Source: a virus
Length of the DNA: 64,000 nt
Reading direction: 5' to 3' (one strand)
Virus record (IMG/VR): IMGVR_UViG_3300034524_000090
Span: 55,805-119,804 of that record
How positions within the stretch are numbered: position 1 is the first letter of the stretch; each line of letters opens with the position of its first letter. Both the position numbers and the translations under genes were made by a program. The notes below the pieces were generated by a model. It made no database searches and had not been told where the DNA came from. It saw nothing but the letters and a program-made list of their open reading frames with translations. This document shows positions 20,706 through 44,889 of the stretch, piece by piece.

Positions 20706-20917
20706 TTTTTTATTGACAGCGGATTTCCTTATGAAAAAAGGATTTTCTACTGTCGTAGATATATTATACGCCATTCCGACAAAAAATCCTTCTTGGTAGC
20801 CATATTTTTTTATCCACCCCCAAACCGATAGAATAAAGGATACAAATAAAAAAATAAAAAATAAAAATCGGCAAAGGCCAAGGGTCAAGATGACAAACTA
20901 GATTAAAAAAGGGCAAT
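20648..20917. other. Non-coding stretch beside attP
   Basis: Contains the right-hand repeats of the integration region, an AT-rich tract and one copy of the CTATCGGTTTGGG motif, with TTATCCACC (one mismatch to a DnaA box) beside it. A minus-strand frame through it lacks a ribosome binding site and runs into the tRNA-like core, so I do not call a gene. Confidence 0.6.
20815..20837 (-). promoter_or_regulatory. CTATCGGTTTGGG motif in the attP region
   Basis: Minus strand CTTTATTCTATCGGTTTGGG. The only copy far from the 37-45 kb cluster. Confidence 0.7.
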
Positions 20918-20956
20918 AAAAAAACCCCTTACGGGTGGTTATTCCCGTAAGGGGTT
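20918..20956 (-). terminator. Intrinsic terminator ending the long minus-strand operon
   Basis: A 13-bp stem (AACCCCTTACGGG with CCCGTAAGGGGTT) followed on the minus strand by a run of Ts, 16 bp beyond the DUF932 stop codon. Confidence 0.92.
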
Positions 20957-20971
20957 ATACATCTATAATAT

Positions 20972-21895
20972 CTAAGCGGCTAAAAGTTCATAAGTCTGAT
21001 CCAAAAGCTCTGCGCCGTTAATAATATTTACAAAGTGGCGTTCCTTAAATGTCTTTGATTTTCTTAAAGGCTCTTTATGTGTAACATGATCTGCAACAGC
21101 ATTTAAAAAGCCCCAAGCAGTGCCTTTAAACTTCTGTAAATCAGGGGCTTTATCATAGCGATACAAAATATCGTTTCTTAGTCTTATTACGTTTTCTTTG
21201 GCTTTTTCGCTCATATCGTTTTTAGTTGGCAAAATAGTGTTGATAATCTCTTCTATATCTTTTTCTTTCAAAGAAATATTAACCATATTTTCAGCGGTTT
21301 TTTGTAGATTTTTTAAGTAAATATCAGTTAATTCTAATGTTCTTCTGGCTTCCTCTAATCGGCCCTGAATATCTCCTCTGTGAATTACACTCCAAGACCG
21401 TTGAGCAGTTTTTAGTGCTAAATTTAATGTATTATTACATACAACACGTACTGGTGTTAATGCGACTTTTACTGGACTTTTGCCGTCATGACTATTAGTA
21501 AAAACTATATAAGGTATTGTAACATCATCAATAAGTTTTATTTCTGGTAAGCGGCCTAATAACCATATTTGTTTACCTTCTTTCAACGATCCTGCTGTTT
21601 CATATTTTAGTCCTTCGCCGATCAAAGAATCTGTAAAAACGAAGGCTTCTTTGTTTTGAATAATTTTGTAACGGTTGCTTACAATACCTAAAACTTTTCC
21701 ATTATCGCTTCTCACGTTGGCCCAATAATTGGGCACTTTCCTTCCTTGCACATAAATTTCTTCAGGTATAACTTCCCAGTCTAAACCTGCTTGTTTAATC
21801 GCTTCTTCTGAAGTTGGGGGTTCATTAAGGATTCTACTCAGGCCATGCCAGGGCACTTCACGAACTGAAAACATAGTTTCAACTAATGCGCTCAT
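20972..21895 (-). CDS. DUF932 family phage/plasmid protein
   Basis: 307 aa. It matches the widespread DUF932 family: PWHGLSRILNEPPTSEEAIKQAGLDW near the N-terminus, NRYKIIQNKEAF, VVCNNTLNLAL, and GTAWGFLNAVADHVTH near the C-terminus. The family is common on plasmids and phages; its molecular role is unsettled. Last gene of the operon before a strong terminator. Confidence 0.9.
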   Translation of the reverse strand: MSALVETMFSVREVPWHGLSRILNEPPTSEEAIKQAGLDWEVIPEEIYVQGRKVPNYWANVRSDNGKVLGIVSNRYKIIQNKEAFVFTDSLIGEGLKYETAGSLKEGKQIWLLGRLPEIKLIDDVTIPYIVFTNSHDGKSPVKVALTPVRVVCNNTLNLALKTAQRSWSVIHRGDIQGRLEEARRTLELTDIYLKNLQKTAENMVNISLKEKDIEEIINTILPTKNDMSEKAKENVIRLRNDILYRYDKAPDLQKFKGTAWGFLNAVADHVTHKEPLRKSKTFKERHFVNIINGAELLDQTYELLAA

Positions 21896-21945
21896 TTTTA
21901 TTTTATCCTCCTTGTGTTTTATTTTTTATGTTTAATTTTTGATTT

Positions 21946-22215
21946 TTAATTTACATTTATTTCGTGTATATATTTTGTTCCTTGTACTATTTGAAATCTA
22001 CAATGCATACACACAGGTTTGCCATAAAAAATATCATCAGTAGCATTGCCACAGAAAATACAAGAGTATTCATAGGGTTTTAATATAATTTGGTTTTTAT
22101 CTATTATAAATTCTATCTCTGTTCCTTCTTCCCAATTTGCCGCTCTAACAATTTCAGGTGGCACAACTAATTTACCTTGTTTAATTGCACGTCTAATATT
22201 AGTTTTTTTACTCAT
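21946..22215 (-). CDS. AbrB/SpoVT-type DNA-binding protein with zinc ribbon
   Basis: 89 aa. The N-terminal swapped-hairpin AbrB domain (KQGKLVVPPEIVRAANWEEGTEIEFII) is joined to a C-terminal zinc ribbon (CIFCGNATDD, CMHC). This is likely a small transcription regulator of the element. The start codon lies just after the stop of the 55-aa gene, with GTAGGAGG inside that gene's end. Confidence 0.8.
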   Translation of the reverse strand: MSKKTNIRRAIKQGKLVVPPEIVRAANWEEGTEIEFIIDKNQIILKPYEYSCIFCGNATDDIFYGKPVCMHCRFQIVQGTKYIHEINVN

Positions 22216-22218
22216 AAT

Positions 22219-22386
22219 TTAACAAATACCTCCTACGTGTGTCCAAGGGTTATAAATTTTAAATACCCAAATTTCTTTACCAGAATTGGTTTTTATCCTT
22301 CCTGAAGGTATTCCCATAACTGCGTGAAATCCCATAGTTTTATTAGCCTTTTTTATTTGGCCCTTAATTTGTTTTCTATTTTTCAT
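22219..22386 (-). CDS. 55-aa basic hypothetical protein
   Basis: The ATG overlaps the TGA of the upstream gene (ATGA), so translation is coupled. The product begins MKNRKQIKGQIKKANKTMGF and ends WTHVGGIC. The N-terminus is strongly basic. Family not recognised. Confidence 0.7.
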   Translation of the reverse strand: MKNRKQIKGQIKKANKTMGFHAVMGIPSGRIKTNSGKEIWVFKIYNPWTHVGGIC

Positions 22387-22646
22387 TGTCTCACCTTCTT
22401 TAGTCTTTGTTGATGAACGGGATTAGGCTTATTTACCCAACCTCCTTCGTCTTCTCTATAATCTAATTCGCCACGTAATATTTTTGTTTCAGTTTCATAA
22501 TCAACAATTTCACCAGGACAATCGGTTGTCAACGAACCTTCAGCGAGCTTGCAAATTTTACACATTGCTAATCCACCTTCACAAATAGGACAATGGATTT
22601 TCTCTATGCAATTACAATCTTCAGGCTTATAAAATATATGCTTCAT
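22383..22646 (-). CDS. Small Cys-rich protein with TTDCPGE motif
   Basis: 87 aa. Cys pairs CNC, CPICEGG and CKICKLAEGSLTTDCPGE suggest one or two zinc sites. The EGSLTTDCPG signature recurs in small phage proteins of unknown role. Preceded by a CAAAGA hairpin and TAGGAG. Confidence 0.75.
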   Translation of the reverse strand: MKHIFYKPEDCNCIEKIHCPICEGGLAMCKICKLAEGSLTTDCPGEIVDYETETKILRGELDYREDEGGWVNKPNPVHQQRLKKVRQ

Positions 22647-22689
22647 TAATAATCACTCCTACGTTTTTTCTTTGAAGTGTGAAGTAAAG

Positions 22690-23115
22690 TTATTTGTTTC
22701 TCTGGGTGGCTTCCCGATAAAGATAATACTTGCCTGCCCAAACAGCAAAATCATGTATGTCCTCTAGTTTGCCAGCCTCAAAAAGAGCATAAAACTCATC
22801 AGAACTCATCTTGTATTTGCGCTCATAACTTTGAAGTTGCTGTTCTAGGAACTTGATTATACTTCCCCGATCACCAGTTAATCGATATACAGTTCGCTCA
22901 AAGTCGTTATAGGACATCATCTTATCCTTATTAAGCCTAACTTTTACCATATTGTTCCACCCTTTGATGTTAAGCTTTTCGCATTTTAAACATGATGCGT
23001 TTTCTCTTTGAAATTCGAGGCTTCCCCATGCTTGTTCTCTTATCTGCTCCTCTATTTTCCGCACAAGAATTCGAGCTTCGTTAATCCATTGCTGATGTAA
23101 AAAACTGTTTGCCAC
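22690..23115 (-). CDS. Hypothetical protein with zinc knuckle
   Basis: 141 aa, GTG start with GGAGGG upstream of a 7-bp hairpin-flanked site. SCLKCEKLN near residue 41 is a CxxC pair. The C-terminal half is helical (TVYRLTGDRGSIIKFLEQQLQSYE). No function recognised. Confidence 0.65.
   Translation of the reverse strand: MANSFLHQQWINEARILVRKIEEQIREQAWGSLEFQRENASCLKCEKLNIKGWNNMVKVRLNKDKMMSYNDFERTVYRLTGDRGSIIKFLEQQLQSYERKYKMSSDEFYALFEAGKLEDIHDFAVWAGKYYLYREATQRNK
22980..22999. repeat. CGCAT...ATGCG imperfect palindrome
   Basis: On the minus strand CGCATCATGTTTAAAATGCG, inside the coding region where it encodes the ASCLKCE zinc knuckle. Close relatives lie outside genes at 23364-23383 and 53573-53593. 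Confidence 0.6.
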
Positions 23116-23130
23116 TTCGATCTACTCCCT

Positions 23131-23151
23131 CCACATTCTCTTTGGAATGTG
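23131..23151 (-). repeat. CAAAGA-loop hairpin next to a ribosome binding site
   Basis: Minus strand CACATTC-CAAAGA-GAATGTG, 7-bp stem, abutting GGAGGG of the 22690-23115 gene. Sister copies: 22662-22682, 23679-23700 and 52811-52831. Confidence 0.7.
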
Positions 23152-23154
23152 TAG

Positions 23155-23343
23155 TTAGCGATTAACACTTTCTTCTAACTCATTTTCTAAATCGTGAAGA
23201 TATATACTAACTCCAAACGCAAATTCGGTTACTTTGGGAGCACGTTCCTCCACCTGTTCTGCCATAGGTAAAAGTTCATTTAAATGTCTGCGTATGGTTT
23301 TGCACTTTTGTTTCATAAACCTATATTCATCTTTGGATAACAT
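23155..23343 (-). CDS. 62-aa helical hypothetical protein
   Basis: Begins MLSKDEYRFMKQKCKTIRRHLNE, highly charged, predicted two-helix protein; GGGAGG 6 nt before the ATG. Function unknown. Confidence 0.65.
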   Translation of the reverse strand: MLSKDEYRFMKQKCKTIRRHLNELLPMAEQVEERAPKVTEFAFGVSIYLHDLENELEESVNR

Positions 23344-23405
23344 AACAGTCCTCCCTTTTGCTTCACATCCTAAACATGATGTGTCTCATCGTTTGTTATG
23401 TGTAT

Positions 23406-23663
23406 TTACCTAAAAAACTCATTATAAAGCTCATTATATGCTTTTTCGTAGTTTTGAGGATTACCATCTCTTTTGACCCATTCATCATAGCAAGCATCTA
23501 CCTGCCAATGGAAATCAGACCGTGGATTGTTATTTGCATATGCTGATAGCCATATTTTATCTTTGGTTTCTTTAAACAATTCTTCTTTTGTCATTTGGGC
23601 TAGTTTTTTTAGATACAAAGATCTAGGTTTTCCATGATTGTCATTCCCGCTATATTTGTCCAT
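23406..23663 (-). CDS. Hypothetical protein, 85 aa
   Basis: Contains LAQMTKEELFKETKDKIW and a Trp/His-containing segment SDFHWQVDACYDEWVKRDG. Small soluble protein of unknown role. AAGGAG follows the CAAAGA hairpin upstream. Confidence 0.65.
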   Translation of the reverse strand: MDKYSGNDNHGKPRSLYLKKLAQMTKEELFKETKDKIWLSAYANNNPRSDFHWQVDACYDEWVKRDGNPQNYEKAYNELYNEFFR

Positions 23664-23704
23664 TTCTTTTTTCTCCTTCGCATTTTCTTTGGAATGTGTT
23701 AATC

Positions 23705-23971
23705 TTAACTGCTGCTGACTGTAATATAAGCCTTATAGTTTTCAGGCAATTTTTGACCACAAATGGGACAATATGTGAACCTTATGTGCTCAGTAGTTCC
23801 ACGTTTTGATACTCGTAATTCTTTTCCATTTTTTAAATACTGTTTTTTGGCAATCACAAACGGCCTAATATATGCCTCAATAACAAAATTTAAACTTACT
23901 GTAGCATTTCTACCATATTTCACATATTCTTTTGATAAACTGCTTGCTAATTCTGTTGCACAATTACACAT
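23705..23971 (-). CDS. Hypothetical zinc-binding protein
   Basis: 88 aa; N-terminal MCNCA and C-terminal YCPICGQKLPENY supply four Cys for a zinc site. The CPICGxKLP pattern is typical of small phage zinc-ribbon proteins. Confidence 0.7.
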   Translation of the reverse strand: MCNCATELASSLSKEYVKYGRNATVSLNFVIEAYIRPFVIAKKQYLKNGKELRVSKRGTTEHIRFTYCPICGQKLPENYKAYITVSSS

Positions 23972-24019
23972 TTATATTACCCCCATACATCTTAATAATA
24001 TTGTTCCTTTTTTATTATC

Positions 24020-25039
24020 TTAGTACACATAATGAGGTGTTTTTCCATCGTATATTATTTCTTCTTCTTGTTGTTCTTCCTGTTGTTCTTGTTCTTCTTG
24101 TTGTTGTTCAAGGTATTTTGTTAGAATTTCAATGCCTCTTGGGGTAATTTCACGTCCTCGACTGGTTTTTTTGATAAGCCCTAAAGTATACAGCCAGGGT
24201 TCTATTACTTCTTCAACAGTCGAAACAGGTACACCTAACAGGTTAGCTATACTTTTAGCGCCAACTGGTCTTTCAGCCCAAGCTAATTGCATAAGATAAA
24301 AATAATCCCTATGTTCTAAACCCATTTCGTCTAATCCTAAGACCTCCATTGTTTCTAAGACAATATCAGGAGGTATTTCATTTGTTCCTTTTATTACTGC
24401 CATATCAATAACACGGTATAAAAGATTTAAGGCTATTCGGGGTGTTAGTTTAGACCGTTTAGCAAGTTCAAACGCACCTTCAACACTAAGTCTAAAACCT
24501 AATTCTTGTGCGGCAAGGGTGACTATCACACCGATTTCTTCAAATTGATAATCCTCCATTTCAATTATTAAATCAAACCTGTCCCGTAACGGCTTTGTTA
24601 CATCGCCTAAACGGGTTGTGGCTCCTATAATAGTAATTATAGGTGTTCTGGCCTTTTTAATTTCATTACCTACTTTGACATCAATCATCCAATCTTCTAA
24701 AACTGTATATAATTTTTCTTCGACCTCTAAAGGTAATGAATGGATTTCGTCAATGAATAATATTTGTAGTTTATCATCGTGTTCAAAACTAATAAGTAGC
24801 TGAATTAGATCCTGTTCTGTACGAAGACTAGGCGCCATTACAACTTTAAATTCAGCTTCTAGTTCTTCAGCCAGAGCTTTAGCTAATGCTGTTTTTCCAG
24901 TTCCAGGTTTACCTACAAAAAGCATATGCGGGGGCACTCGTCCTGATAAGAGTGCCCCTCTAACAGCTAGTCGTATTTTATTTTTAGCTTTTTCTTGGCC
25001 TATATAGTAAGCTAAATTTTTAGGAGTATATAACTGCAT
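24020..25039 (-). CDS. ruvB: RuvB-like Holliday junction branch-migration ATPase
   Basis: 339 aa. AAA+ motifs: Walker A FVGKPGTGKTALAKAL (residues 42-57), Walker B LFIDEIHSLP, sensor/arginine-finger segment GATTRLGDVTKPLRDRFD, then the RuvB-type lid and a winged-helix DNA domain (GVPVSTVEEVIEPWLYTLGLIKKTSRGREITPRG). The last ~30 residues are an unusual Glu/Gln-rich tail. No ruvA or ruvC is seen here, so it may use host RuvA or act with the neighbouring SNF2 helicase. Confidence 0.92.
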   Translation of the reverse strand: MQLYTPKNLAYYIGQEKAKNKIRLAVRGALLSGRVPPHMLFVGKPGTGKTALAKALAEELEAEFKVVMAPSLRTEQDLIQLLISFEHDDKLQILFIDEIHSLPLEVEEKLYTVLEDWMIDVKVGNEIKKARTPIITIIGATTRLGDVTKPLRDRFDLIIEMEDYQFEEIGVIVTLAAQELGFRLSVEGAFELAKRSKLTPRIALNLLYRVIDMAVIKGTNEIPPDIVLETMEVLGLDEMGLEHRDYFYLMQLAWAERPVGAKSIANLLGVPVSTVEEVIEPWLYTLGLIKKTSRGREITPRGIEILTKYLEQQQEEQEQQEEQQEEEIIYDGKTPHYVY

Positions 25040-25042
25040 CAG

Positions 25043-25522
25043 TTAGGCCCCCTTTTTATCTTTTTTGTTGTTGCGTTCAACTTTTATAACTAATGCTTTT
25101 TCCTTATTATCCCAGGTGGCTAAATATTTTTTCAGCACTACATCAAAACTACTTAACCATTCGACAAATGTTCTACTAAAAGCCCTACCTGATCTGCCGT
25201 TATTTATAATATCTAGTTTCAAAGCACCCTCATTATCAGGTTTAAATTTTAATTCATTGGTTTCGTCATCAAAAATAGGTTTTAGTCTTATTGCAGATTT
25301 TATATCGGGGCCTAAAGCACTTACAGCGGCTAAATTAAAATGTATAGCGCCTTTTGGAGTAATATTAATTGTAGGGTCTAAAAACCTGGTATAACTACCG
25401 CCTTCAAATACGTGTTGCATTTTGGTTACACCTCCTTTGGTTTTTACTAGTATGCCCGTTTCTTCATCTAAATTATACATTTTATTTTCTCCATAATCAA
25501 GAGTTTTATTTTGTACTAACAT
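25043..25522 (-). CDS. Hypothetical protein between ruvB and the SNF2 helicase
   Basis: 159 aa if started at 25522, where it overlaps the helicase gene by 17 nt. An internal ATG at 25420 has a much better site (AAAGGAGGTG), so a 125-aa form is likely and the start is uncertain. Contents: beta-rich (INITPKGAIHFNLAAVSALGP) with a Lys-rich C-terminus (RNNKKDKKGA). Possibly a DNA-binding accessory; no family recognised. Confidence 0.7.
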   Translation of the reverse strand: MLVQNKTLDYGENKMYNLDEETGILVKTKGGVTKMQHVFEGGSYTRFLDPTINITPKGAIHFNLAAVSALGPDIKSAIRLKPIFDDETNELKFKPDNEGALKLDIINNGRSGRAFSRTFVEWLSSFDVVLKKYLATWDNKEKALVIKVERNNKKDKKGA

Positions 25523-27461: not shown

Positions 27462-27463
27462 AC

Positions 27464-28786
27464 TTATGCCTCCAAATATTTTGCAAAATGAAATTTACCA
27501 AAAAGCAATTCCTTTACTAACCTTTGCCATTCCATTTCAAATTCTCTGGTGCTATCAAGAGTTTTTGTGTGTTTATGCAGAGCTTCATGTAATAATGTCA
27601 TTGTTACGTTTTCTACGCTGGTAAAAATTTCTATTGTTAAATAAATCGTATCCTTGATCTTATCATAGAAACCATCAATATTGCCACAATCAATTTTATT
27701 TATATAGCATTGTTGAGTAAGTTTTACAGGCTCTACTGGCCCTACAATTTTCTCTACAATATTTTTAGCAATCCTAAACATTTCTTTTTGTTTTTCATCT
27801 AAACAACTAAATGGTATATCTACCTCATTAAATTTTTGTTCTATTATTTGTTGGCTATAGGGTACTCCTATACGTTCTAAAAATGCTTGAATTGCCCAAG
27901 GTAAATCCAATACCTGAAAACCTAAATATTCAGCAGTATTATCAGCTTTTGTATTATAACTTAAACATTTATTCTGGAATAATTTCATGACAATTGATTT
28001 CCATAGTTCCCGATTTTGGGGCCATATTGATACTCTACTTTCGACATAATCGCTAAATTTATTTCTCATTTCTAGTATTTTTTCTAGAAAATATGTTATT
28101 ACTTTTTTGCTTTGCGTTTCTTCTAAAGCGTTACGCATCATCTTTTCTAATTGTTGCATATCAACTACAGTCCGATCACGATTTTGAGCTTCTTTACCAA
28201 CTCCTTGAAAATTATAAGAGAATAATAAATTAGGCATCTCGGTTGCTAAAACACCATTAATAAAAACTTTTCCTCCAGGCAAACCGATAACAGGATCAAG
28301 TTGTTTTATTTTTTCTTTCCGTAATTCTTTAAAATACTGTTTAGCCTGTTCCACTTCTTCAGGAGTGCATTCAATTTCAAACCTAGTTCCAACTTCTCTA
28401 GAAATCGATCTAATATTAAATGCTAAAACTTCACAACCCAATGCCTTAGAAAAGATTATTTCTGGTCTAATACGATAACCTACAGTATCTATAATCATTT
28501 CCCTGCCTAATCTGGCTATAACCAGCATAGCCAATTTAAGTCCTTCGCCAAATTGTCCAATCAAATTATTATCGTCTCTTTTACTTGATTTGCCCAAAGC
28601 CAAATCTATAGTTGAAATACCAGGGCCATCATCTTCAATAATAAATTTATTTTTACCTCTATGAAAACGAATATTGCAATTGTATTTAGTTTTTGTGTCA
28701 AAGGCTTCTTGTAATATTTCTCGTAAAGCCTCTACTATTCCCCAATGAGGCACATATTCAGTAGAAATTGCAGTTTCAATACGCAT
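27464..28786 (-). CDS. GHKL (HSP90/MutL/MORC-type) ATPase with C-terminal HEXXH motif
   Basis: 440 aa. ATP lid motifs: N-box EALREILQEAFDTK (the usual Asn is replaced by Glu), G1 IEDDGPGIS and G2 LIGQFGEGLKLA. The middle third is unlike MutL or HSP90. Near residue 396 is MTLLHEALHKHTKT, an HEXXH zinc-metallopeptidase signature followed by a conserved-looking Glu-rich helix. Combining a GHKL switch with a zincin-like site is unusual; proteolysis is inference only. Start codon follows GGAGGGG. Confidence 0.82.
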   Translation of the reverse strand: MRIETAISTEYVPHWGIVEALREILQEAFDTKTKYNCNIRFHRGKNKFIIEDDGPGISTIDLALGKSSKRDDNNLIGQFGEGLKLAMLVIARLGREMIIDTVGYRIRPEIIFSKALGCEVLAFNIRSISREVGTRFEIECTPEEVEQAKQYFKELRKEKIKQLDPVIGLPGGKVFINGVLATEMPNLLFSYNFQGVGKEAQNRDRTVVDMQQLEKMMRNALEETQSKKVITYFLEKILEMRNKFSDYVESRVSIWPQNRELWKSIVMKLFQNKCLSYNTKADNTAEYLGFQVLDLPWAIQAFLERIGVPYSQQIIEQKFNEVDIPFSCLDEKQKEMFRIAKNIVEKIVGPVEPVKLTQQCYINKIDCGNIDGFYDKIKDTIYLTIEIFTSVENVTMTLLHEALHKHTKTLDSTREFEMEWQRLVKELLFGKFHFAKYLEA

Positions 28787-37006: not shown

Positions 37007-37243
37007 TTAATCTTCTTCTCCATAAGCACTCGGAATTTTACAACCACCTTCACAATATAAATCCTCATCCTCCCAATTAATTTCATATTCCAATTTTAAC
37101 AGATTTTCTTCGTCATTAGCACAAATAGAACAAAGAATTTCGCCCTCTGGAGTAATATAATAGACAGGATACCCTCCAGGCCAAACATGAGAGGGCAATT
37201 TACCACCATATTCTTCTAAAAATCTTTTTGTTACTTTTGCCAT
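37007..37243 (-). CDS. Hypothetical protein with split Cys pairs
   Basis: 78 aa. VYYITPEGEILCSICANDEEN followed later by DLYCEGGCKIPS; this pattern, with HVWPGGYPVYY before it, is typical of small phage-encoded proteins of unknown function. AAAGGAGG upstream. Confidence 0.68.
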   Translation of the reverse strand: MAKVTKRFLEEYGGKLPSHVWPGGYPVYYITPEGEILCSICANDEENLLKLEYEINWEDEDLYCEGGCKIPSAYGEED

Positions 37244-37271: not shown

Positions 37272-37294
37272 AAACTAAATCTGATAGATATTCT
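37272..37294 (-). promoter_or_regulatory. CTATCGGTTTGGG motif, variant copy
   Basis: Minus strand AGAATATCTATCAGATTTAG, about 25 nt before the ribosome binding site of the 37007-37243 gene. Confidence 0.6.
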
Positions 37295-37543
37295 TTAACC
37301 TAAATATTCTTCAGGAGTGTAAAATCCTTTTGAAGCCTGGATATATTGTTCTCTCGTAATTTTACTACATTCTTTTAGATAGTCTCTATCTAATGCCCCA
37401 TGTTGCCCAATTGGACAATAAGCAGTAATATATTTTCCTGTATAATCCCAAGGTTCATCTATAGCTACAAAGACTGAATCAGGGCTAAGGGGTTTATCCT
37501 TATCCGCATCTTTATCTGAGTAATAACCGATAATATTATTCAT
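37295..37543 (-). CDS. Hypothetical protein, 82 aa
   Basis: Begins MNNIIGYYSDKDADKDKPLS; Asp/Tyr-rich, ends QASKGFYTPEEYLG. Related in style to short phage proteins; unknown. Confidence 0.62.
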   Translation of the reverse strand: MNNIIGYYSDKDADKDKPLSPDSVFVAIDEPWDYTGKYITAYCPIGQHGALDRDYLKECSKITREQYIQASKGFYTPEEYLG

Positions 37544-37568
37544 AATATCTCCTCCCTTTGGTTATTTA

Positions 37569-37592
37569 AAACCCAATCCGATAGATATTATA
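37569..37592 (-). promoter_or_regulatory. CTATCGGTTTGGG motif with TATAAT directly upstream
   Basis: Minus strand TATAATATCTATCGGATTGG followed by G; no -35 box 17 nt upstream. It precedes the 37295-37543 gene. Confidence 0.7.
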
Positions 37593-37625: not shown

Positions 37626-38027
37626 CTAGAACCATGACGCAAATACAGGCCCAGGCTGGCCTTTTCTTACTTCTTCTACTAATTTCCTAGCATAGTTATA
37701 ATCAGCCATATAACCTCTATGGTTTTTTCTTCTTAAAATAGCATCTTTTATTACATCTTTATTAATTTTAAGCAAAGTATCCTGTAATTCCCCTTTTCTA
37801 AAACCCGCCATATGCATATACCATTCGCAGAAAAATGGCGTATTTGTTTTATAAGCTATTATTGCATTAACTGCTGATTTAGGGGTAAAATAACCAAGAG
37901 ATTCACAAATTAAATGGCTAACAATTCTCGGCCAACGATTTAAAATAAACTCCTGCATTTTTTCCTGTCTTAAAAACTCCCAACCCTCTTTTCCATATTG
38001 TTCAAATATATTTTGTAAGTTGATCAT
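37626..38027 (-). CDS. Hypothetical protein, 133 aa
   Basis: Helical and basic: FLRQEKMQEFILNRWPRIVSH, DAILRRKNHRGYMADYNYARKLVEEVRKG. Unknown; GGAGG upstream with a motif copy before it. Confidence 0.65.
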   Translation of the reverse strand: MINLQNIFEQYGKEGWEFLRQEKMQEFILNRWPRIVSHLICESLGYFTPKSAVNAIIAYKTNTPFFCEWYMHMAGFRKGELQDTLLKINKDVIKDAILRRKNHRGYMADYNYARKLVEEVRKGQPGPVFASWF

Positions 38028-38053
38028 ATAAATCCTCCTCTTTTAGTTATTTA

Positions 38054-38079
38054 AAACCCAAACTGATAAATATTATACT
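38054..38079 (-). promoter_or_regulatory. CTATCGGTTTGGG motif with TATAAT upstream
   Basis: Minus strand TATAATATTTATCAGTTTGG followed by G, before the 37626-38027 gene. Confidence 0.68.
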
Positions 38080-38216: not shown

Positions 38217-38241
38217 GTGTACACTCCTCCTGTCTAAAACA

Positions 38242-38867: not shown

Positions 38868-38901
38868 ATATAATACCTTTAATTCTTTTCTTCCTGGCTT
38901 A

Positions 38902-39123
38902 TTAACTCCCTTTTCCTAATATTTTACCAGCATTTCGACCAAAATAAAGTTCTAATTTAGCTTTATTCAGATACCTAATAATAAAATCGTTACCAGATTT
39001 TTTTAAGTTCAATACTTCTACCCAATAACTATCTTCTCTCATTTGACGCAAAAACGCCTGTAAGTGAGGAAACATATTATTAATATTATTACAGATTGTA
39101 GTAGCTTCTTTTTCGGTTAGCAT
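38902..39123 (-). CDS. Hypothetical protein, paralog of the C-terminal domain of the 39961-40428 product
   Basis: 73 aa, beginning MLTEKEATTICNNINNMFPHL. The pattern MLTEK.A..IC..IN..FPHL recurs in the larger 39961-40428 protein, indicating duplication. Overlaps the upstream gene by 35 nt. Confidence 0.68.
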   Translation of the reverse strand: MLTEKEATTICNNINNMFPHLQAFLRQMREDSYWVEVLNLKKSGNDFIIRYLNKAKLELYFGRNAGKILGKGS

Positions 39124-39571
39124 TTTTTATCTCTTCCTCATTTGTAATATATTTAATACACTCACTAACAATTTTATAACTTTTTATTCCACCTATCACC
39201 CAAAACTCAATTAGATTATGTTGAGCATCAGTTAAAACAAATCCATGTATTATATATTTATTTTTTCTGTGATGATAAAAACAATACAAGATAGCCTCTT
39301 TATCTTGAACATAATTTTTAATTTTTGCTTTTATTTTTTGTGGCAGTCGAAAATATTCCACAAAAGGTCTTAAATCATATTCAGTCAAATACCCATAAGG
39401 AACTTGTTGTCCAACAGGATTTTTTAATAAATTCATAGGTCTTATATAACTACTATATTGAGTATTACTGATAACATTACCAATCGAAATCACATTTGTT
39501 TGACGGTCAAAGGTTTTATGACCAGTATTTATGAACATTTTATTAGGATTTATCCATTCTTTTGTTTTCAT
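39089..39571 (-). CDS. Hypothetical protein, 160 aa
   Basis: Begins MKTKEWINPNKMFINTGHKT; central PYGYLTEYDLRPFVEYFRLPQ; C-terminal basic patch NANRKRSYYNL. No family recognised. Confidence 0.62.
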   Translation of the reverse strand: MKTKEWINPNKMFINTGHKTFDRQTNVISIGNVISNTQYSSYIRPMNLLKNPVGQQVPYGYLTEYDLRPFVEYFRLPQKIKAKIKNYVQDKEAILYCFYHHRKNKYIIHGFVLTDAQHNLIEFWVIGGIKSYKIVSECIKYITNEEEIKNANRKRSYYNL

Positions 39572-39600
39572 TAATCTATTAAACCTCCCTTATTTTAATT

Positions 39601-39624
39601 AAACCCAAACCGATAGATTAAATA
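39601..39624 (-). promoter_or_regulatory. CTATCGGTTTGGG motif
   Basis: Minus strand TTTAATCTATCGGTTTGGG, overlapping the stop codon of the 39618-39932 gene and preceding the 39089-39571 gene. Confidence 0.72.
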
Positions 39625-39932
39625 GGCCCATCAACCTCGCTATTTAAATATAAAGTACATATATCACATTGACCCCCGCATTTCTTAATTTTATATTCAT
39701 ATTTTGGTGGCTTGATAATTTCTGTAATTGGTCGATTTAAAAATTTGGCCTCAGTAGAAAAATCAAACAAACAATCCATTAGCTCATTCAATCTTGTCTC
39801 CATATAGTCATCAACAAATTTTTGATTCTCTTCTTTTAGTATTTCAATATATTTTTCAGCCTTTTCCCTGCCTTTGAAACATCTAATAAACCCCATGCAA
39901 TTATTTTTAAAATAACTGCATACTGCAAACAT
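39618..39932 (-). CDS. Hypothetical protein with C-terminal Cys cluster
   Basis: 104 aa. N-terminal MFAVCSYFKNNCMGFIRCFKG and C-terminal KKCGGQCDICTLYL hold seven Cys. Helical middle part. Possible metal binding. Confidence 0.65.
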   Translation of the reverse strand: MFAVCSYFKNNCMGFIRCFKGREKAEKYIEILKEENQKFVDDYMETRLNELMDCLFDFSTEAKFLNRPITEIIKPPKYEYKIKKCGGQCDICTLYLNSEVDGPI

Positions 39933-39960
39933 ATTTATTACCTCCTTTGAAAATTATATA

Positions 39961-40428
39961 TTATAGACATCCTATTATCATTTTTTCAGCATGTTTGCCA
40001 AAATGATCGAATAAATCTTCGATCTTCCTGATACGGAAATCACAGTTTTCATCTTTATTAAGATTAATAACATCTACTTCATACCTATATCCCATTTCTC
40101 TTATTGTGGCTTCCAAATGCGGGAAAAGTTTATTTATTTGGTTGCAAATATACCGTGCTTGTTTTTCTGTTAACATATCAAACTCCTCCTTGTACCAATC
40201 AGGATATTCTTTTTTCGTCTTGAATTGAACATAATATTTCTTTTTATTATAATAAGGTTTATTAGCACTTATATTGACGTATTTCTGATCGCCTCTTTTT
40301 CTAGCATTTCTTGCCACTATCTTAGCCTCTTCTAAACTATCACAGATAAATACTAATTTATTTATTTTACCTTCAGCTAATCCCCAACCTGACATAAATT
40401 TATCAGTCATAGTAACATAATAAGGCAT
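39961..40428 (-). CDS. Two-domain hypothetical protein
   Basis: 155 aa. The N-terminal domain (LVFICDSLEEAKIVARNARKRGDQKYVNI) is joined to a C-terminal domain (MLTEKQARYICNQINKLFPHL) that also exists as a stand-alone gene at 38902-39123. Fusion or fission within one locus. Confidence 0.68.
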   Translation of the reverse strand: MPYYVTMTDKFMSGWGLAEGKINKLVFICDSLEEAKIVARNARKRGDQKYVNISANKPYYNKKKYYVQFKTKKEYPDWYKEEFDMLTEKQARYICNQINKLFPHLEATIREMGYRYEVDVINLNKDENCDFRIRKIEDLFDHFGKHAEKMIIGCL

Positions 40429-40454
40429 AAAAATACCTCCTTTGATTTTTTATA

Positions 40455-40478
40455 AAAACCCAAACCGATAGAATAAAG
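40455..40478 (-). promoter_or_regulatory. CTATCGGTTTGGG motif
   Basis: Minus strand TTTATTCTATCGGTTTGGG, between the terminator at 40484 and the ribosome binding site of the 39961-40428 gene. Confidence 0.75.
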
Positions 40479-40483
40479 AGGCA

Positions 40484-40508
40484 AACAAAGGGCCATTTTA
40501 CACGGCCC
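40484..40508 (-). terminator. Intrinsic terminator of the 40498-40950 gene
   Basis: GGGCC and GGCCC stem on the minus strand followed by TTTGTTT; the stop codon lies in the loop. Confidence 0.7.
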
Positions 40509-40950
40509 TTAATTCTTCTATTTCTTTTCTAATTAATTCTACCGCTTCAGGGGCCGCAGTTTTTGTTTCAGCGGCCCATTTAATTAACTCGTCTAGACTG
40601 ATTCTCTTTATATCCTGTTCCATACTGCCCTCTGATGGAGCAACATAGAACTTAATAAAATCTTCTCCTCTATTGTCGTACCATGAATTATTTACATACA
40701 CTGCTTCCTGCTTGGTGACCGAAAAAATTCGACCACCAAGAGAAACGTATTTAGTTTCATTATGGTAACGGTAGCCCTCTATTCCACCCGAATTGGGGCC
40801 ACCATACCAATCAGTATCGTCCACAAACGGATCAAATACTACAGGATGATCCAATACTTCTACATCTCTCAATACAGTCCTTGCCTCTAATAGATTAGAG
40901 GCAAAACCTGCTTTAACCAACAAGGTGGCGATCTCTAATCCTTTTAACAT
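40498..40950 (-). CDS. Hypothetical protein, 150 aa
   Basis: Begins MLKGLEIATLLVKAGFASNL, then Asp/Gly/Tyr-rich sheet region (DDTDWYGGPNSGGIEGYRYH) and a helical end (LDELIKWAAETKTAAPEAVELIRKE). Has its own promoter and terminator, so it is monocistronic. No family recognised. Confidence 0.68.
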   Translation of the reverse strand: MLKGLEIATLLVKAGFASNLLEARTVLRDVEVLDHPVVFDPFVDDTDWYGGPNSGGIEGYRYHNETKYVSLGGRIFSVTKQEAVYVNNSWYDNRGEDFIKFYVAPSEGSMEQDIKRISLDELIKWAAETKTAAPEAVELIRKEIEELRAV

Positions 40951-40974
40951 TTAAATCATCCTCCTTTAATTTTT

Positions 40975-41002
40975 ATTATAATATCCTATATTCAGTTGTA
41001 AA
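40975..41002 (-). promoter_or_regulatory. Sigma-A promoter for the 40498-40950 gene
   Basis: TTTACA, 16-nt spacer, TATAAT on the minus strand. Confidence 0.78.
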
Positions 41003-41005
41003 TAA

Positions 41006-41028
41006 TCGCCAGGAAAAAATCCTGGCGA
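41006..41028 (-). terminator. Hairpin terminator after the 41030-41416 gene
   Basis: CGCCAGGA and TCCTGGCG pair on the minus strand, starting right after the stop codon; followed by ATTATTT. Confidence 0.7.
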
Positions 41029-41029
41029 A

Positions 41030-41416
41030 TTAATTTATTTTATTTGTTAAGGCTTCATAATACATTTCACCCAAATAATCCTTTAAATCCTGATGTTTCC
41101 CAAACCTTCCCTTGACGTCCAAATTAATACCATTTGCCATCAAGGAAGGTCTAATAACTACCTGAAAATCAATCCAGCCATCATAGAAACCATTTTCGTC
41201 CATTCTATGATAGCTGGAATTAATAACCAATCTATCTTCTCGGCTACTTTCAAAATCAAAACGGTTGCCGCTATCGATGCCGCTACCATGCGGCAAATAT
41301 TTTTCAACAATCTCCTCAATTTTTGCTTTGTGTTTTTCCTGCCATTCTACATTATTTCTTTTAATACAATTCAGATACGCAATAAAATGTCCAGCTAAAG
41401 CTTGATAAACACGCAT
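41030..41416 (-). CDS. Hypothetical protein, 128 aa
   Basis: N-terminal helix MRVYQALAGHFIAYLNCIKR, then a beta-sheet region with Asp-rich turns (DENGFYDGWIDFQVVIRPSL) and FGKHQDLKDYLGEMYYEAL. Resembles phage-type conserved hypotheticals; unknown role. Confidence 0.66.
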   Translation of the reverse strand: MRVYQALAGHFIAYLNCIKRNNVEWQEKHKAKIEEIVEKYLPHGSGIDSGNRFDFESSREDRLVINSSYHRMDENGFYDGWIDFQVVIRPSLMANGINLDVKGRFGKHQDLKDYLGEMYYEALTNKIN

Positions 41417-41446
41417 ATTAAATTCCTCCTTCTAAAATTTTTATTT

Positions 41447-41465
41447 GGCCCAAACCGATAGAATC
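41447..41465 (-). promoter_or_regulatory. CTATCGGTTTGGG motif
   Basis: Minus strand GATTCTATCGGTTTGGGCC, before the ribosome binding site of the 41030-41416 gene. Confidence 0.72.
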
Positions 41466-41484
41466 GGCGGGCCGCCCTAAAAAA

Positions 41485-41604
41485 TTAATACTTAATTTTT
41501 TTCCTACAGGCCGTTTTATTTAATTCGGCCTTTTTATTCTGTTTAATGCGGGTACGGGGATTAATTCCCCATACCCGCCGATCTTTGAGTAAGATAATTT
41601 TCAT
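41485..41604 (-). CDS. 39-aa very basic peptide
   Basis: ATG overlaps the TGA of the upstream gene. Begins MKIILLKDRRVWGINPRTRI and ends KTACRKKIKY; Arg/Lys-rich, probably nucleic-acid binding. Confidence 0.55.
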   Translation of the reverse strand: MKIILLKDRRVWGINPRTRIKQNKKAELNKTACRKKIKY

Positions 41605-41888
41605 GGGATCACCTCTATATATTCTGAATCTTGGACAGCCTGTAAGACCGCCCTATATATATTTTGTTCCTCTTCATATATGAAGAGGAAACTGTTCATA
41701 ATATCTGTTATTTCTTCTGTTTCTAGGCCGAAAATTTTCAGCCCGAAACAGAAAAACGTAGCGAACAATTTATTATTTACATCTATTTTTTCCATCCCCG
41801 CCGCAAAACGGCGAAGATGGTCAAAGGAGATACGGACTGGTTTTTCTTCAAGCACGATACCGTTTTCATGATCAATTATTTGAAGCAT
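41601..41888 (-). CDS. Hypothetical protein, 95 aa
   Basis: Contains VRISFDHLRRFAAGMEKIDV and a Phe-rich helix LFATFFCFGLKIFG; acidic C-terminus. Unknown. Confidence 0.62.
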   Translation of the reverse strand: MLQIIDHENGIVLEEKPVRISFDHLRRFAAGMEKIDVNNKLFATFFCFGLKIFGLETEEITDIMNSFLFIYEEEQNIYRAVLQAVQDSEYIEVIP

Positions 41889-41921
41889 ACCATATTCCTC
41901 CTTTAATTAATGTATTATATA

Positions 41922-42251
41922 TTATAACGTAATTATATACCATACAATTTTATCTCTATATTGTTCTAACTCTGCAAAGTCTAAGACCTTGCCTTCAGGT
42001 AGTCTGCAATTCAGACTGCCTACTACAACTATATCGCCCTTTTTTAACTGCAAGAATTGCCTGTTAGGTTGAACAGGTAATTCTAATAACTGCCCAAATA
42101 ATTGGGCAGTTCCTTCGTGCCCAATTACCGATACAAACCCTTCTTTGAGAAGGGTTTGTACTTCTTCTAATGTAACTTTTTTTACGTTGATATTAATTTC
42201 ATCAAATAGAGACAGCATAGTGATAGAAAAGGCATTAACTAAATAAAGCAT
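41922..42251 (-). CDS. Hypothetical protein (STIV B116-like pattern), 109 aa
   Basis: Begins MLYLVNAFSITML; the pattern ITLEEVQTLLKEGFVSVIGHEGTAQLFGQLLELPV and LKKGDIVVVGSL resembles the small STIV B116-type family found in viruses and plasmids (memory-based). Its role there is unknown; DNA binding has been suggested. Confidence 0.68.
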   Translation of the reverse strand: MLYLVNAFSITMLSLFDEININVKKVTLEEVQTLLKEGFVSVIGHEGTAQLFGQLLELPVQPNRQFLQLKKGDIVVVGSLNCRLPEGKVLDFAELEQYRDKIVWYIITL

Positions 42252-42288
42252 AATTTTCTCCTCCCCAAATTTTGTTCTCGCCCAATCC

Positions 42289-42306
42289 GATATATATTAT
42301 ATCAGA
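42289..42306 (-). promoter_or_regulatory. CTATCGGTTTGGG motif with TATAAT upstream
   Basis: Minus strand TATAATATATATCGGATTGG followed by GC, upstream of the 41922-42251 gene. Confidence 0.68.
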
Positions 42307-42322
42307 TTAGGCTTCCAACCAA

Positions 42323-42357
42323 TAAAAAAACCCAGGCAGAAAATATCTGCCTGGGTA
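42323..42357 (-). terminator. Strong intrinsic terminator after the 42363-42581 gene
   Basis: ACCCAGGCAGA pairs with TCTGCCTGGGT on the minus strand, followed by seven Ts. Confidence 0.92.
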
Positions 42358-42362
42358 TAATT

Positions 42363-42581
42363 TTATTCGTAAATTTCAAACTCATCCCTATTTTCCTCTA
42401 TCCAGGGAACTAACTCCCTGGAAAAAGGAAAATCAGAAATTAAAAGTACATTTTCAAGTTCTTTTTCTGTAATGGGACCATAGGTCCCAATGATTTCCCA
42501 ACGGGGTATAGATCCAACAGCTTTCATTTCGACGGCGTACAATTCGCCGTTTTTCCTTTGCCAAATCTGATACTTAATCAT
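42363..42581 (-). CDS. Hypothetical protein, 72 aa
   Basis: Begins MIKYQIWQRKNGELYAVEMK; small beta protein with acidic end. ATG overlaps the TGA of the 33-aa gene upstream. Confidence 0.62.
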   Translation of the reverse strand: MIKYQIWQRKNGELYAVEMKAVGSIPRWEIIGTYGPITEKELENVLLISDFPFSRELVPWIEENRDEFEIYE

Positions 42582-42679
42582 TCTTTTCCCTCCTCTTCTT
42601 TATATTCACTACAGACGGGAACTTTGCTCCCGTCTTTCAAAATAATATAGCAGTCACAACCACAACCATATTTACACAT
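42578..42679 (-). CDS. 33-aa Cys-rich peptide
   Basis: MCKYGCGCDCYIIL has four Cys in nine residues, plus one more downstream; acidic tail. GGAGGAGG of the preceding gene's end serves as ribosome binding site. Metal binding is likely. Confidence 0.55.
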   Translation of the reverse strand: MCKYGCGCDCYIILKDGSKVPVCSEYKEEEGKE

Positions 42680-42682
42680 ATT

Positions 42683-42808
42683 TTATTCCTCCTCCTCCTT
42701 ATAGCAATTTTCTATTGAAATGTCGTATCCACAGAAGGGGCATAAGGCCCCTTCTGCTAACTCTAAGACAATATCTAATTTAATACCGCAACAATGTTTT
42801 AGTAGCAT
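42683..42808 (-). CDS. 41-aa zinc-binding peptide
   Basis: HCCGIKLDIV and LCPFCGYDISIENC give a treble-clef-like Cys pattern; acidic end EEEE. AAAGGAGG upstream. Confidence 0.6.
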   Translation of the reverse strand: MLLKHCCGIKLDIVLELAEGALCPFCGYDISIENCYKEEEE

Positions 42809-42843
42809 ATTATATACCTCCTTTATTATGTATTAGGGACTGG

Positions 42844-43206
42844 CTATTTCGCCAGTCCTTTAAGCAAATTAAAGAACATCTTGGTCTGGTAAACGCCTTT
42901 TACCAGACCATAATAACCATTCTGGTACCTTTTCAGTACCAGAATTTTTTCTGTATCCGAAACTAGAGCATAATGTATTCCATTATGCTCTGTAGCCGAC
43001 AGTATTTTAATACTATCAACATCAAGGAATGTTGCAAACCGTTCCTTAATCACAGGCAAATCCTCTTCAAATAATTGAAGAGGATTCTTCTTGATATTAA
43101 TTGATTTAATTACTTCTTTCAATTCATCGACGGTATATTCTACACCGTCGATAATAATAACGTTATTCACGTTCTCACTAACAATATTCTTCTTTTTCCT
43201 TGCCAT
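42844..43206 (-). CDS. Hypothetical protein, 120 aa
   Basis: A basic N-terminus (MARKKKN) is followed by VIIDGVEYTVDELKEVIKS and a beta-rich core (LSATEHNGIHYALVSDTEKILVLK). No family recognised. Its long leader contains a structured element (43217-43330). Confidence 0.65.
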   Translation of the reverse strand: MARKKKNIVSENVNNVIIIDGVEYTVDELKEVIKSINIKKNPLQLFEEDLPVIKERFATFLDVDSIKILSATEHNGIHYALVSDTEKILVLKRYQNGYYGLVKGVYQTKMFFNLLKGLAK

Positions 43207-43216
43207 TATTATTCCT

Positions 43217-43330
43217 CCTTAATTAGTTTTTTTAGCAAGTAGCTTACCGCTACCTGCTGTCACCCAAAATGGGCACGAAGACCCTTCCGTTTAGGCGTCC
43301 CAACGCTTCGCGGGTTTTGGGAATTTTTGC
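43217..43330 (-). ncRNA. Candidate structured 5' leader RNA (copy A)
   Basis: On the minus strand CCCAAAA...TTTTGGG encloses a branched region including CGC-GAA-GCG, GGGACGC and a GAAG/CTTC hairpin, then a separate hairpin AGCAGGTAGC/GCTACTTGCT directly before AAGGAGG. The block AAAATTCC..AAAACC..CGTTGGGAC is repeated at 44528-44572. It may be a regulatory leader; the ligand, if any, is unknown. Confidence 0.4.
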
Positions 43331-43354
43331 CAGCCTATTAGAACCAATATTATT

Positions 43355-43445
43355 CCATATAGAGCCAAATATGAACCATATAGAACTATATAGAACCATA
43401 TAGACTATTTGGGCCAAATAGATAGATATAAGCCAATATAGTCCA
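43355..43445. repeat. CATATAGA-type low-complexity repeats
   Basis: Repeated short units (CCATATAGA, GAACCATATAGA, ACTATATAGA) across about 90 bp, flanked by terminators. A minus-strand frame crosses them but has no ribosome binding site and contains a terminator hairpin, so no gene is called. Confidence 0.6.
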
Positions 43446-43514
43446 AATAAAAAAATACGGCCCAATAAGGCCGCATAGAAAAAAAACAAAAAAATAAAGG
43501 GGAATAATCCCCTT
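43446..43514 (-). terminator. Tandem intrinsic terminators after the sigma-like gene
   Basis: AAGGGG/CCCCTT (43497-43514) followed by a T-rich run, then CGGCC/GGCCG (43458-43473) followed by TATTTTTTTATTT on the minus strand. Confidence 0.85.
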
Positions 43515-44085
43515 AGTCGAATGTATATTCAACTCCACGTCTATCTACATTGAAGTAGATAGACGCCACTAATCTCACATTACTTATTATATTGGATATT
43601 TCGCTCACAGACTTTTTAAGCCTATGAGCGATCTCGTATCTATTATATCCAAGCAGTAAATATTTTATTACTGCTCGGTATTCGGCCCCAAATAACTCCA
43701 TAAACCCTTTTATTTCTTCGACAGTATCATCTTCAATAGCGTCAAAGAGATTATCAACCTTAATTTTATCAATATATGCTCCTACGAACTCGCCGTCATT
43801 ATTGGCGAGTTCTTGTTCTAAATATATTTCTATCCGTTCCATTTCCGTCAATCTTTGACGGACAATAGAACGTATTTTATTCTTTATTGTCCTCCATTCT
43901 TTCCCTGGTGTTAACTTTACCAGGGAAACCGCCAATTCTTGATATATATCGGCCTTTTCCCAATCGAAAAGGCCGTAATAATTCAATACCTCAGTTATCA
44001 TCCTGTAAATTAAACCTTTTTGAGCCTCCATAAAGGCCCAAAGGGTCTCATATTGTTTTCTTTGAGTTTTTGTTAACATTTTCAT
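43513..44085 (-). CDS. Sigma-factor-like protein
   Basis: 190 aa. The N-terminal half has a region-2-like arrangement (GLIYRMITEVLNYYGLFDWEKADIYQELAVSLV). The C-terminal half has a region-4-like helix-turn-helix (EYRAVIKYLLLGYNRYEIAHRLKKSVSEISNIISNVR). It is small enough for an ECF-type or phage late sigma factor. It may direct element promoters that have a TATAAT box but no -35. Linked to a strong upstream promoter and long leader. Confidence 0.7.
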   Translation of the reverse strand: MKMLTKTQRKQYETLWAFMEAQKGLIYRMITEVLNYYGLFDWEKADIYQELAVSLVKLTPGKEWRTIKNKIRSIVRQRLTEMERIEIYLEQELANNDGEFVGAYIDKIKVDNLFDAIEDDTVEEIKGFMELFGAEYRAVIKYLLLGYNRYEIAHRLKKSVSEISNIISNVRLVASIYFNVDRRGVEYTFD

Positions 44086-44166
44086 ACTGTATTCCTCCCT
44101 TATTATATTCTATATTCAATTGTATTTCCCTCAGCCGTTTTTCGGCTTCATAGGGAATTTATATTA

Positions 44167-44316
44167 TTATAATTCATCAATTACTCTTTGAACTTTATTG
44201 TAAAACTCATCTAACAGAATTACTCCTTTGTTATAATCCTTTAGTATTCGTTTTATTCTTTCAATGGCTTGTTTACATTTTTGTCCTTCTTCAATTGCTT
44301 TAATTAATTCTTCCAT
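44167..44316 (-). CDS. 49-aa helical protein
   Basis: ATG follows AAGGAGG. Begins MEELIKAIEEGQKCKQAIER and continues as heptad-like helices. First gene behind the 44480 promoter and its leader; cotranscribed with the sigma-like gene. Unknown. Confidence 0.6.
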   Translation of the reverse strand: MEELIKAIEEGQKCKQAIERIKRILKDYNKGVILLDEFYNKVQRVIDEL

Positions 44317-44329
44317 ATCTCATTCCTCC

Positions 44330-44473
44330 TTAGTATATTCCATATTCAATTGTTTGGTAACGCAGTATTCCCGATGGCGTACTGCGTCCAAGGACAATAA
44401 TATTAATATATTTTTATTGCCCTTGGATTTTTTCGATATTAACTTGTCAAAGAGCAACGCAGGAAAATCCTGC
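44330..44473 (-). ncRNA. Structured leader with attenuator-like hairpins
   Basis: In the transcript from the 44480 promoter: a 13-bp stem CCAAGGGCAATAA/TTATTGTCCTTGG (one G-U pair) over a 13-nt loop, then CGCAGTA/TACTGCG, before the ribosome binding site. No T tract follows, so regulation would be by folding, RNA stability or protein binding. Confidence 0.55.
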
Positions 44474-44479
44474 AAGTAT

Positions 44480-44508
44480 ATTTTAGCACGTGTCAAGGTT
44501 GTTGTCAA
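44480..44508 (-). promoter_or_regulatory. Strong sigma-A promoter
   Basis: TTGACA, 17-nt spacer, TAAAAT on the minus strand. A second TTGACA lies inside the spacer. Drives the 49-aa gene and the sigma-like gene. Confidence 0.85.
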
Positions 44509-44527
44509 GTAGGTTAGCAAGATGCCT

Positions 44528-44572
44528 GTCAAACCTTGAGTCCCAACGGTTTCTGGTTTTGACGGAATTTTC
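44528..44572 (-). repeat. Structured element, copy B
   Basis: On the minus strand AAAATTCCGTCAAAACC...CGTTGGGAC, closed by GTCAAA/TTTGAC, 20 nt upstream of the 44480 promoter. Related to copy A near 43300. Confidence 0.5.
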
Positions 44573-44640
44573 TGTCTTTCCAGCTTTTGCCAGACATTAT
44601 ATACAGACGTATATATAGACTGATTAAGATTAAGACGATA

Positions 44641-44661
44641 AAAGGCAAACCGATAGAATAT
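44641..44661 (-). promoter_or_regulatory. CTATCGGTTTGGG motif
   Basis: Minus strand ATATTCTATCGGTTTGCC. Confidence 0.7.
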
Positions 44662-44790
44662 AAGGCGTTATATATAGAAAAGACGCCGTAAAAAATAGCC
44701 TATATATTTTTTATATAAGCCAAAAATTCGCCGCAGGAAAAATTCGCCGCAATAAAAAACAACCACATATAAAAACTAATACAAATAAAA

Positions 44791-44810
44791 ATCTAAACCG
44801 ATAGAATACC
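44791..44810 (-). promoter_or_regulatory. CTATCGGTTTGGG motif
   Basis: Minus strand GTATTCTATCGGTTTAG. Confidence 0.7.
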
Positions 44811-44868
44811 CAGGTATATATATAAAACCCATATAAAATCTTTTTCTCTTCCAATTTATTCTATATTC

Positions 44869-44889
44869 AGCCAATCTGATAGAATAATA
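44869..44889 (-). promoter_or_regulatory. CTATCGGTTTGGG motif
   Basis: Minus strand TATTATTCTATCAGATTGGC. Confidence 0.68.

Follow-up and report, generated by a model that had tools for sequence, protein, structure and literature searches.

A polar 13-bp repeat ahead of small unit-head genes in a probable SPbeta-group phage, and its candidate role as a regulon control site

The 64,000-nucleotide stretch analyzed here (the window) comprises bases 55,805-119,804 of the 119,804-bp virus record IMGVR_UViG_3300034524_000090, the remaining half of which was fetched as well, and carries eleven copies of a short polar motif in one block of small genes. The core of the motif is CTATCGGTTTGGG, with the invariant part TATC-R-G-W-TT. 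The other half of the record contains terminase, portal, major head, and tape-measure genes, and sequence comparison identified SPbeta counterparts of the terminase, portal, tape measure, DnaB, DnaE, ribonucleotide reductase, dUTPase, and a YorM-like protein. Such gene content is typical of large tailed phages belonging to the SPbeta group. An attP-like sequence at ~20.6 kb matches the 3' half of tRNA-Phe, and because exact copies of this half are present in several Bacillota genomes, the host is probably a member of the Bacillota. Genes were predicted as plain open reading frame (ORF) calls combined with Shine-Dalgarno (SD) sequences.

The eleven copies reported by the initial annotation are all present, within a few bases of where it had placed them, and it was right that they read in the same direction as the minus-strand genes: 11 of 11 sites are on the minus strand, in noncoding DNA, between 20.8 and 44.9 kb of the window, and none was found elsewhere in the 119.8-kb record. 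The shared core that it proposed holds as a motif common to all eleven, but the exact CTATCGGTTTGGG is present in just four, the remainder differing at one to four positions. Ten matches with no more than two mismatches to the core were found in the window versus 0.78 expected (100 shuffles, maximum 3), one of which, at 3908 (+), is a chance match within a gene. When a 24-column matrix was run over the whole 119,804 bp, exactly eleven strong sites were obtained (scores 19.2-32.2), the runner-up reaching 13.4. Because this matrix was trained on the same eleven sites, independent controls (pattern matching, shuffles, and motif discovery) matter. No site reached a score of 19 when the noncoding segments were shuffled 60 times, and motif discovery on upstream regions, blind to the sites, recovered the same motif (20.4 bits). 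None of the eleven sites overlaps a predicted gene, although noncoding DNA makes up only 18.5% of the 20-46 kb region. Equal frequency within genes or on both strands, the outcome that the initial annotation had set against its own proposal, was looked for and was not what we found.

Seven copies had been described as lying before a ribosome binding site, and in these seven the spacing is indeed tight: the SD lies 14-18 nt, and the start codon 28-32 nt, past the core end. The site-bearing genes are heads of transcription units, and genes inside runs (e.g., the four behind 39089-39571) have no core. The remaining copies are distributed as previously noted, with one near attP and three clustered at 44.6-44.9 kb, in a 0.65-kb gene-free stretch ahead of the first gene of the block. 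A possible 13-codon ORF (MGFIYIPGYSIGL) in this stretch, at 44792-44882 (-), starts behind site 44870 and ends in site 44792. A strong intrinsic terminator is located shortly before site 42281, and another strong terminator precedes site 20819; because site 42281 follows its terminator and stands directly before a gene, a promoter is most likely there. The near-constant start-codon gap, the unit-head placement, and the two upstream classes described below go beyond the initial annotation.

Class B consists of four sites, in three of which (37572, 38057, and 42281) exactly 2 nt separate a TATAAT from the core that follows; at 37275, AAGAAT occupies this position. Three TATAATs at one offset among eleven sites correspond to P ~1e-6, judged by the frequency of the hexamer in noncoding DNA. 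These three were correctly recognized earlier, but the accompanying description "without a -35" is imprecise at 37572, where a weak -35 (GTGATA, 18 nt) occurs together with an extended -10. This site is the only one of the eleven with a -35 hexamer 16-18 nt upstream and an in-register sigma-70 match of at least 9/12. Class A consists of seven sites with no TATAAT and with a CC/GCCT block 5' of ATTCTATCGGTTTGGG. CC occurs within 10 nt before the core in 7/7 of them, typically as GCCT-n-TTTATT, and the naive P of 4e-9 is too small because the pattern was stated after looking. Class A cores are mostly near-exact, and class B cores mostly deviate at position 8. On one reading, the core is common to two promoter types; on the other, class A constitutes a separate promoter type. 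On the opposite strand, the likeness of CCGATAG to a sigma-28 -10 element was judged a coincidence. A repeat with no regulatory role, such as origin iterons or a spreading cassette, would suit the three copies clustered in the AT-rich gene-free stretch and the similar leaders of 37572 and 38057, which may be duplicates; we consider it most improbable, given the placement before SDs and the TATAAT coupling, and given that the leaders of the other copies are alike only in being A-rich.

Table 1. Core sites, genes of the putative regulon, and a candidate regulator, in window coordinates.
Feature	Coordinates	Strand	Remarks
Core site, class A, exact core	20819-20831	-	between terminator 20956-20923 and attP; 44 nt before possible 55-aa ORF
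Core site, class B, weakest (CTATCAGATTTAG, AAGAAT upstream)	37275-37287	-	31 nt before gene 37007-37243
Core site, class B (TATAAT upstream, extended -10)	37572-37584	-	28 nt before gene 37295-37543
Core site, class B (TATAAT upstream)	38057-38069	-	29 nt before gene 37626-38027
Core site, class A, exact core	39604-39616	-	32 nt before 39089-39571, head of ~5-gene run
Core site, class A, exact core	40459-40471	-	30 nt before gene 39961-40428
Core site, class A, exact core	41449-41461	-	32 nt before gene 41030-41416
Core site, class B (TGATATAAT upstream)	42281-42293	-	29 nt before 41922-42251; shortly past terminator 42356-42330
Core site, class A	44644-44656	-	gene-free stretch
Core site, class A	44792-44804	-	gene-free stretch
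Core site, class A (CTATCAGATTGGC)	44870-44882	-	gene-free stretch
Possible degenerate twelfth site, noncoding	43413-43425	-	matrix score 13.4
Putative regulon gene	37007-37243	-	phrog_18452 match limited to last 25 residues
Putative regulon gene	37295-37543	-	core site 37572, 28 nt upstream
Putative regulon gene	37626-38027	-	single-sequence fold model too poor to use (pLDDT 44)
Putative regulon gene	39089-39571	-	heads run of about five genes
Putative regulon gene, phrog_5423	39961-40428	-	N-terminal half 65% identical to Brevibacillus phage Sundance SUNDANCE_191
Putative regulon gene	41030-41416	-	homologs near genome ends of several other phages
Putative regulon gene, DUF1874 / STIV B116-like	41922-42251	-	E = 4e-22; His of IGH motif kept
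Weakly sigma-like protein, C-terminal sigma region 4-like helix-turn-helix	43513-44085	-	candidate regulator only

The virus-specific sequence is common to seven small unit-head genes, including one DUF1874/AcrIII-1 homolog. The protein of this gene (41922-42251) aligns with AFV3-109, a SIRV protein, and STIV B116, and its family, DUF1874, is AcrIII-1, a viral ring nuclease. Genome ends, near which homologs of 41030-41416 are located, may often carry first-injected genes. The site-headed small genes probably constitute an early accessory set. A shared control site has the advantage of naming a regulon without knowledge of its proteins: here it ties six functionally uncharacterized genes to the AcrIII-1/DUF1874 homolog and makes them candidate anti-defence or early takeover genes.

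SPBRE of phage SPbeta is a 15-bp repeat at promoter regions that is bound by the master repressor MrpR (PMC10516654). It was re-derived here as AAATAATATGTATAT, and strong SPBRE sites were found on the strand of their genes. The SPBRE and the present core are both polar short repeats at promoter regions in the early/accessory block of a large temperate phage, with ~10 sites oriented like the genes and a related phage backbone, the promoter position of the present core being deduced from sequence. They differ in that AAATAATATGTATAT is unrelated to the present core, in that the start-codon distances are 29-125 nt in SPbeta versus 28-32 nt from the core end here, and in that a degenerate MrpR-like recombinase was not found here. 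Brevibacillus phage Sundance (L151 / KT151959.1), a further member of the SPbeta group whose annotated genes include YonF, YonG, YonK, and YomH, also has a polar repeat, GCGTGTG[TA]TTTT...TTTACATTANTATATGAA. Its ~16 copies all lie on the same strand in the 121.6-134 kb region, many of them 17-22 nt before annotated starts. As in the present phage, this is a one-strand repeat within a block of small genes, usually a short distance ahead of a start codon, and one of its targets is homologous to 39961-40428; it differs in its unrelated sequence, in the GTGTG box upstream, and in that some sites are not directly before an annotated start. The accessible portion of the Sundance genome paper (PMC4909266) makes no mention of this repeat.

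We lean towards the view that the core is a phage-specific double-stranded DNA control site in the transcription-start region of an early accessory gene set, that is, a functional analogue of SPBRE. By analogy with MrpR on SPBRE, it is probably bound by a phage-encoded regulator. The features behind this view are directly observed: the site is polar, noncoding, restricted to one block, placed at unit heads at a near-constant start-codon gap, and set at an exact distance from TATAAT in three cases. At class B sites, the host RNA polymerase would use the TATAAT, so that transcription would start inside the core, and a phage-encoded regulator on the core would block or gate initiation. The gene set would then be silent in the prophage and released together upon infection or induction. 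At class A sites, the same regulator site would adjoin a different promoter half on its upstream side (CC/GCCT...ATT), and this half may depend on a phage factor. A regulator site in the start region accounts for the polarity, the one-block confinement, the TATAAT coupling, and the SPbeta parallel.

Several observations weigh against such an analogue of SPBRE. The core is missing from the best sigma-70 promoters in the block, 44508-44480 (11/12) and 29706-29678 (12/12), and 10 of 11 sites are without an in-register sigma-70 match of at least 9/12, which is unlike the needs of a repressor of host promoters. A tight start-codon distance is no requirement of an operator; both this distance and the lack of a site at the strongest promoters are left unexplained. 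Two tyrosine recombinases are encoded by the phage, each of which seems to keep most catalytic residues in an alignment with E. coli XerD and looks active, so that no obvious MrpR-like repressor was found. The start-codon distances vary for several Sundance sites, and the core was found in no relative examined, so that there is no phylogenetic footprint. The coreless strongest promoters and the constant start-codon gap keep alive both an alternative promoter class and a role at the RNA level. The initial annotation had proposed a regulon operator or an alternative promoter class, which was the right pair of hypotheses; the shared regulon is well supported.

As an alternative promoter class, which we regard as rather unlikely, class A (CC/GCCT...ATTCTATCGGTTTGGG) would itself be the promoter and class B would be hybrids with a host -10. 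Its reader, assumed with the same reserve, would be RNA polymerase with a sigma-like factor or activator (43513-44085 or the extracytoplasmic function (ECF)-like L044:5233-5721) or a phage polymerase that escaped recognition. The seven class A sites, with no clear -10/-35 yet mostly near-perfect cores, speak for this, as do the poorer cores of the class B sites, which have a -10, the CC block 5' of the core in 7/7 (a post hoc pattern, as described above), the near-fixed leader length, and the two encoded sigma-like proteins. As a lead only, CTAT-N-GG resembles the start region of T7-type promoters. Against a promoter class of this kind, a T7-type RNA polymerase gave no match in Pfam/PHROGs scans of most ORFs, and a YonO-type polymerase gave neither a blastp match nor a DFDGD motif among the proteins scanned. 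Neither sigma-like protein is more than a weak or unproven candidate; 43513-44085 has only a weak sigma match and an alignment-free fold model that was too poor to use. The alignment-free model of 37626-38027 was likewise too poor, and a fold search was meaningless. The 44.6-44.9 kb cluster, with no gene directly downstream, also argues against a promoter class. The AbrB-like and winged-helix proteins that the initial annotation named beside a sigma-like one are candidate binders as well, none of the three being tied to the motif. A further proposal, that class A sites are phage promoters without -35/-10 served by a dedicated phage factor and that the two classes hand the gene set from host-type to phage-type transcription, seems unlikely to us.

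The stoperators of the cluster A mycobacteriophage L5 are 13-bp, asymmetric, intergenic sites that are co-oriented with transcription (PMC9283540, PMC6550527), and the present site is also 13-bp, asymmetric, co-oriented, and intergenic. If the cores acted in this way, as repressor-bound roadblocks halting elongation from strong upstream promoters (e.g., 44508), the many copies per genome and the short intergenic gaps would be expected, and certain gaps could not accommodate a complete promoter (site 39604 is 1 nt past the upstream stop, and site 38057 is 3 nt past it). We find this quite improbable: the TATAAT coupling and the unit-head position point to initiation, the near-constant start-codon distance is unexpected for a roadblock, three of the sites precede the strongest promoter, and the other minus-strand genes (45-62 kb) have no sites. 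In addition, the present sites are all within 24 kb of the 119.8-kb record rather than across transcribed arms as in L5, several copies are coupled to a -10, and no L5-type repressor was recognised.

The fixed spacing to the SD could also mean that the core forms part of the transcript and works within the mRNA leader, through control of translation, stability, or a binding protein. The narrow spacing at each of the seven genic sites (SD after 14-18 nt, start codon after 28-32 nt) and the presence of one core behind two different upstream halves would be consistent with this. Folding of the leader RNAs gave no structure that was conserved or better than shuffles (z-scores -0.97 to 1.51) and no SD pairing, four sites have no SD at that distance, and class B transcription probably begins within the core, leaving only part of it in the RNA; an RNA-level element is accordingly quite unlikely in our judgment.

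The search beyond the record returned no second case. Pattern scans of IMG/VR gave 35 one-copy matches without leader context, which were judged chance, stricter patterns gave no match there, and no relatives were found in IMG/VR by means of 17288-19573, 20972-21895, and 27464-28786. Genome G102, which is host-like, showed no enrichment of the motif (45 matches vs 76 for a reversed control). A related element of 103,282 bp (G102:C4, L144-L149) was identified in a bacterial genome from the probable host group, with identities of 54% for DUF932, 94% for gene 23406-23663, and 72% for gene 53956-54441; nothing in it came closer to the core than two mismatches, and no other motif clearly took the place of the core. 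No core was found within the fetched loci of viral-contig homologs of 41030-41416 and 41922-42251, and no core-plus-SD in genomes with the exact tRNA-Phe 3' half. The initial annotation had called the motif undescribed. This is true of the sequence and the regulon, which matched nothing beyond what was judged chance in IMG/VR and nothing in the relatives or in those host-like genomes that were tested, but not of the kind of element, which is known from SPBRE, L5 stoperators, phages Jenst and SecTim467, and archaeal viruses.

According to the Sundance genome paper (PMC4909266), Jenst and SecTim467 share a repeated motif that is not found in Sundance; its ~20 promoter-like copies lie upstream of co-functional genes and are absent from the host genome, and phage sigma factors were proposed as its readers. 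Their motif differs in marking replication and transcription genes, and we liken it to the present one by description, not by sequence. In archaeal viruses, virus-specific regulatory sequences were found before small early anti-defence genes (PMC11065993). Here, too, a virus-specific upstream sequence is shared by many small single, probably early genes despite low gene conservation; the promoters there are of the BRE/TATA type, and the genes named AcrIII-1 in that work are rarely under the motif (PMC11065993), unlike the DUF1874 gene here. Together with SPbeta and Sundance, the present core suggests that each SPbeta-group phage serves this one purpose with a site of its own, and that these private sites diverge rapidly. 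If this is true, regulator-site co-evolution and immunity specificity would be testable across the SPbeta group.

Other repeats were also observed in the block. A second upstream repeat, ACAATTGAATATAGRATAT, occurs in three copies on the minus strand (40981-40999, 44105-44123, and 44335-44353), each with a hairpin before it and an SD after it. Perfect hairpins with stems of at least 8 bp are located inside the coding genes 42844-43206 and 43513-44085 (-), which have 5 and 6 of them, respectively, whereas synonymous-codon shuffles gave 0.43 and 0. The whole record has 48 hairpins of this kind, and 24 of them fall within the 6 kb at 40.2-46.2 kb. This packing of hairpins into coding genes is perhaps more unusual than the motif.

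The attP (tRNA-Phe 3' half) sits within a possible 55-aa ORF, 20607-20774 (-), so that integration would alter the C-terminus of this ORF. At 712-5112 (+), ribonucleotide reductase has a probable intein, as in SPbeta. DNA polymerase III alpha is encoded in two pieces (profile 43-433 and 434-1064) at 6987-11195 (+), with a LAGLIDADG-like ORF (8350-9120) between them, an intein or intron arrangement. The 761-aa phrog_5156 protein at 17288-19573 (+) has a distant relative on an Alicyclobacillus dauci plasmid.

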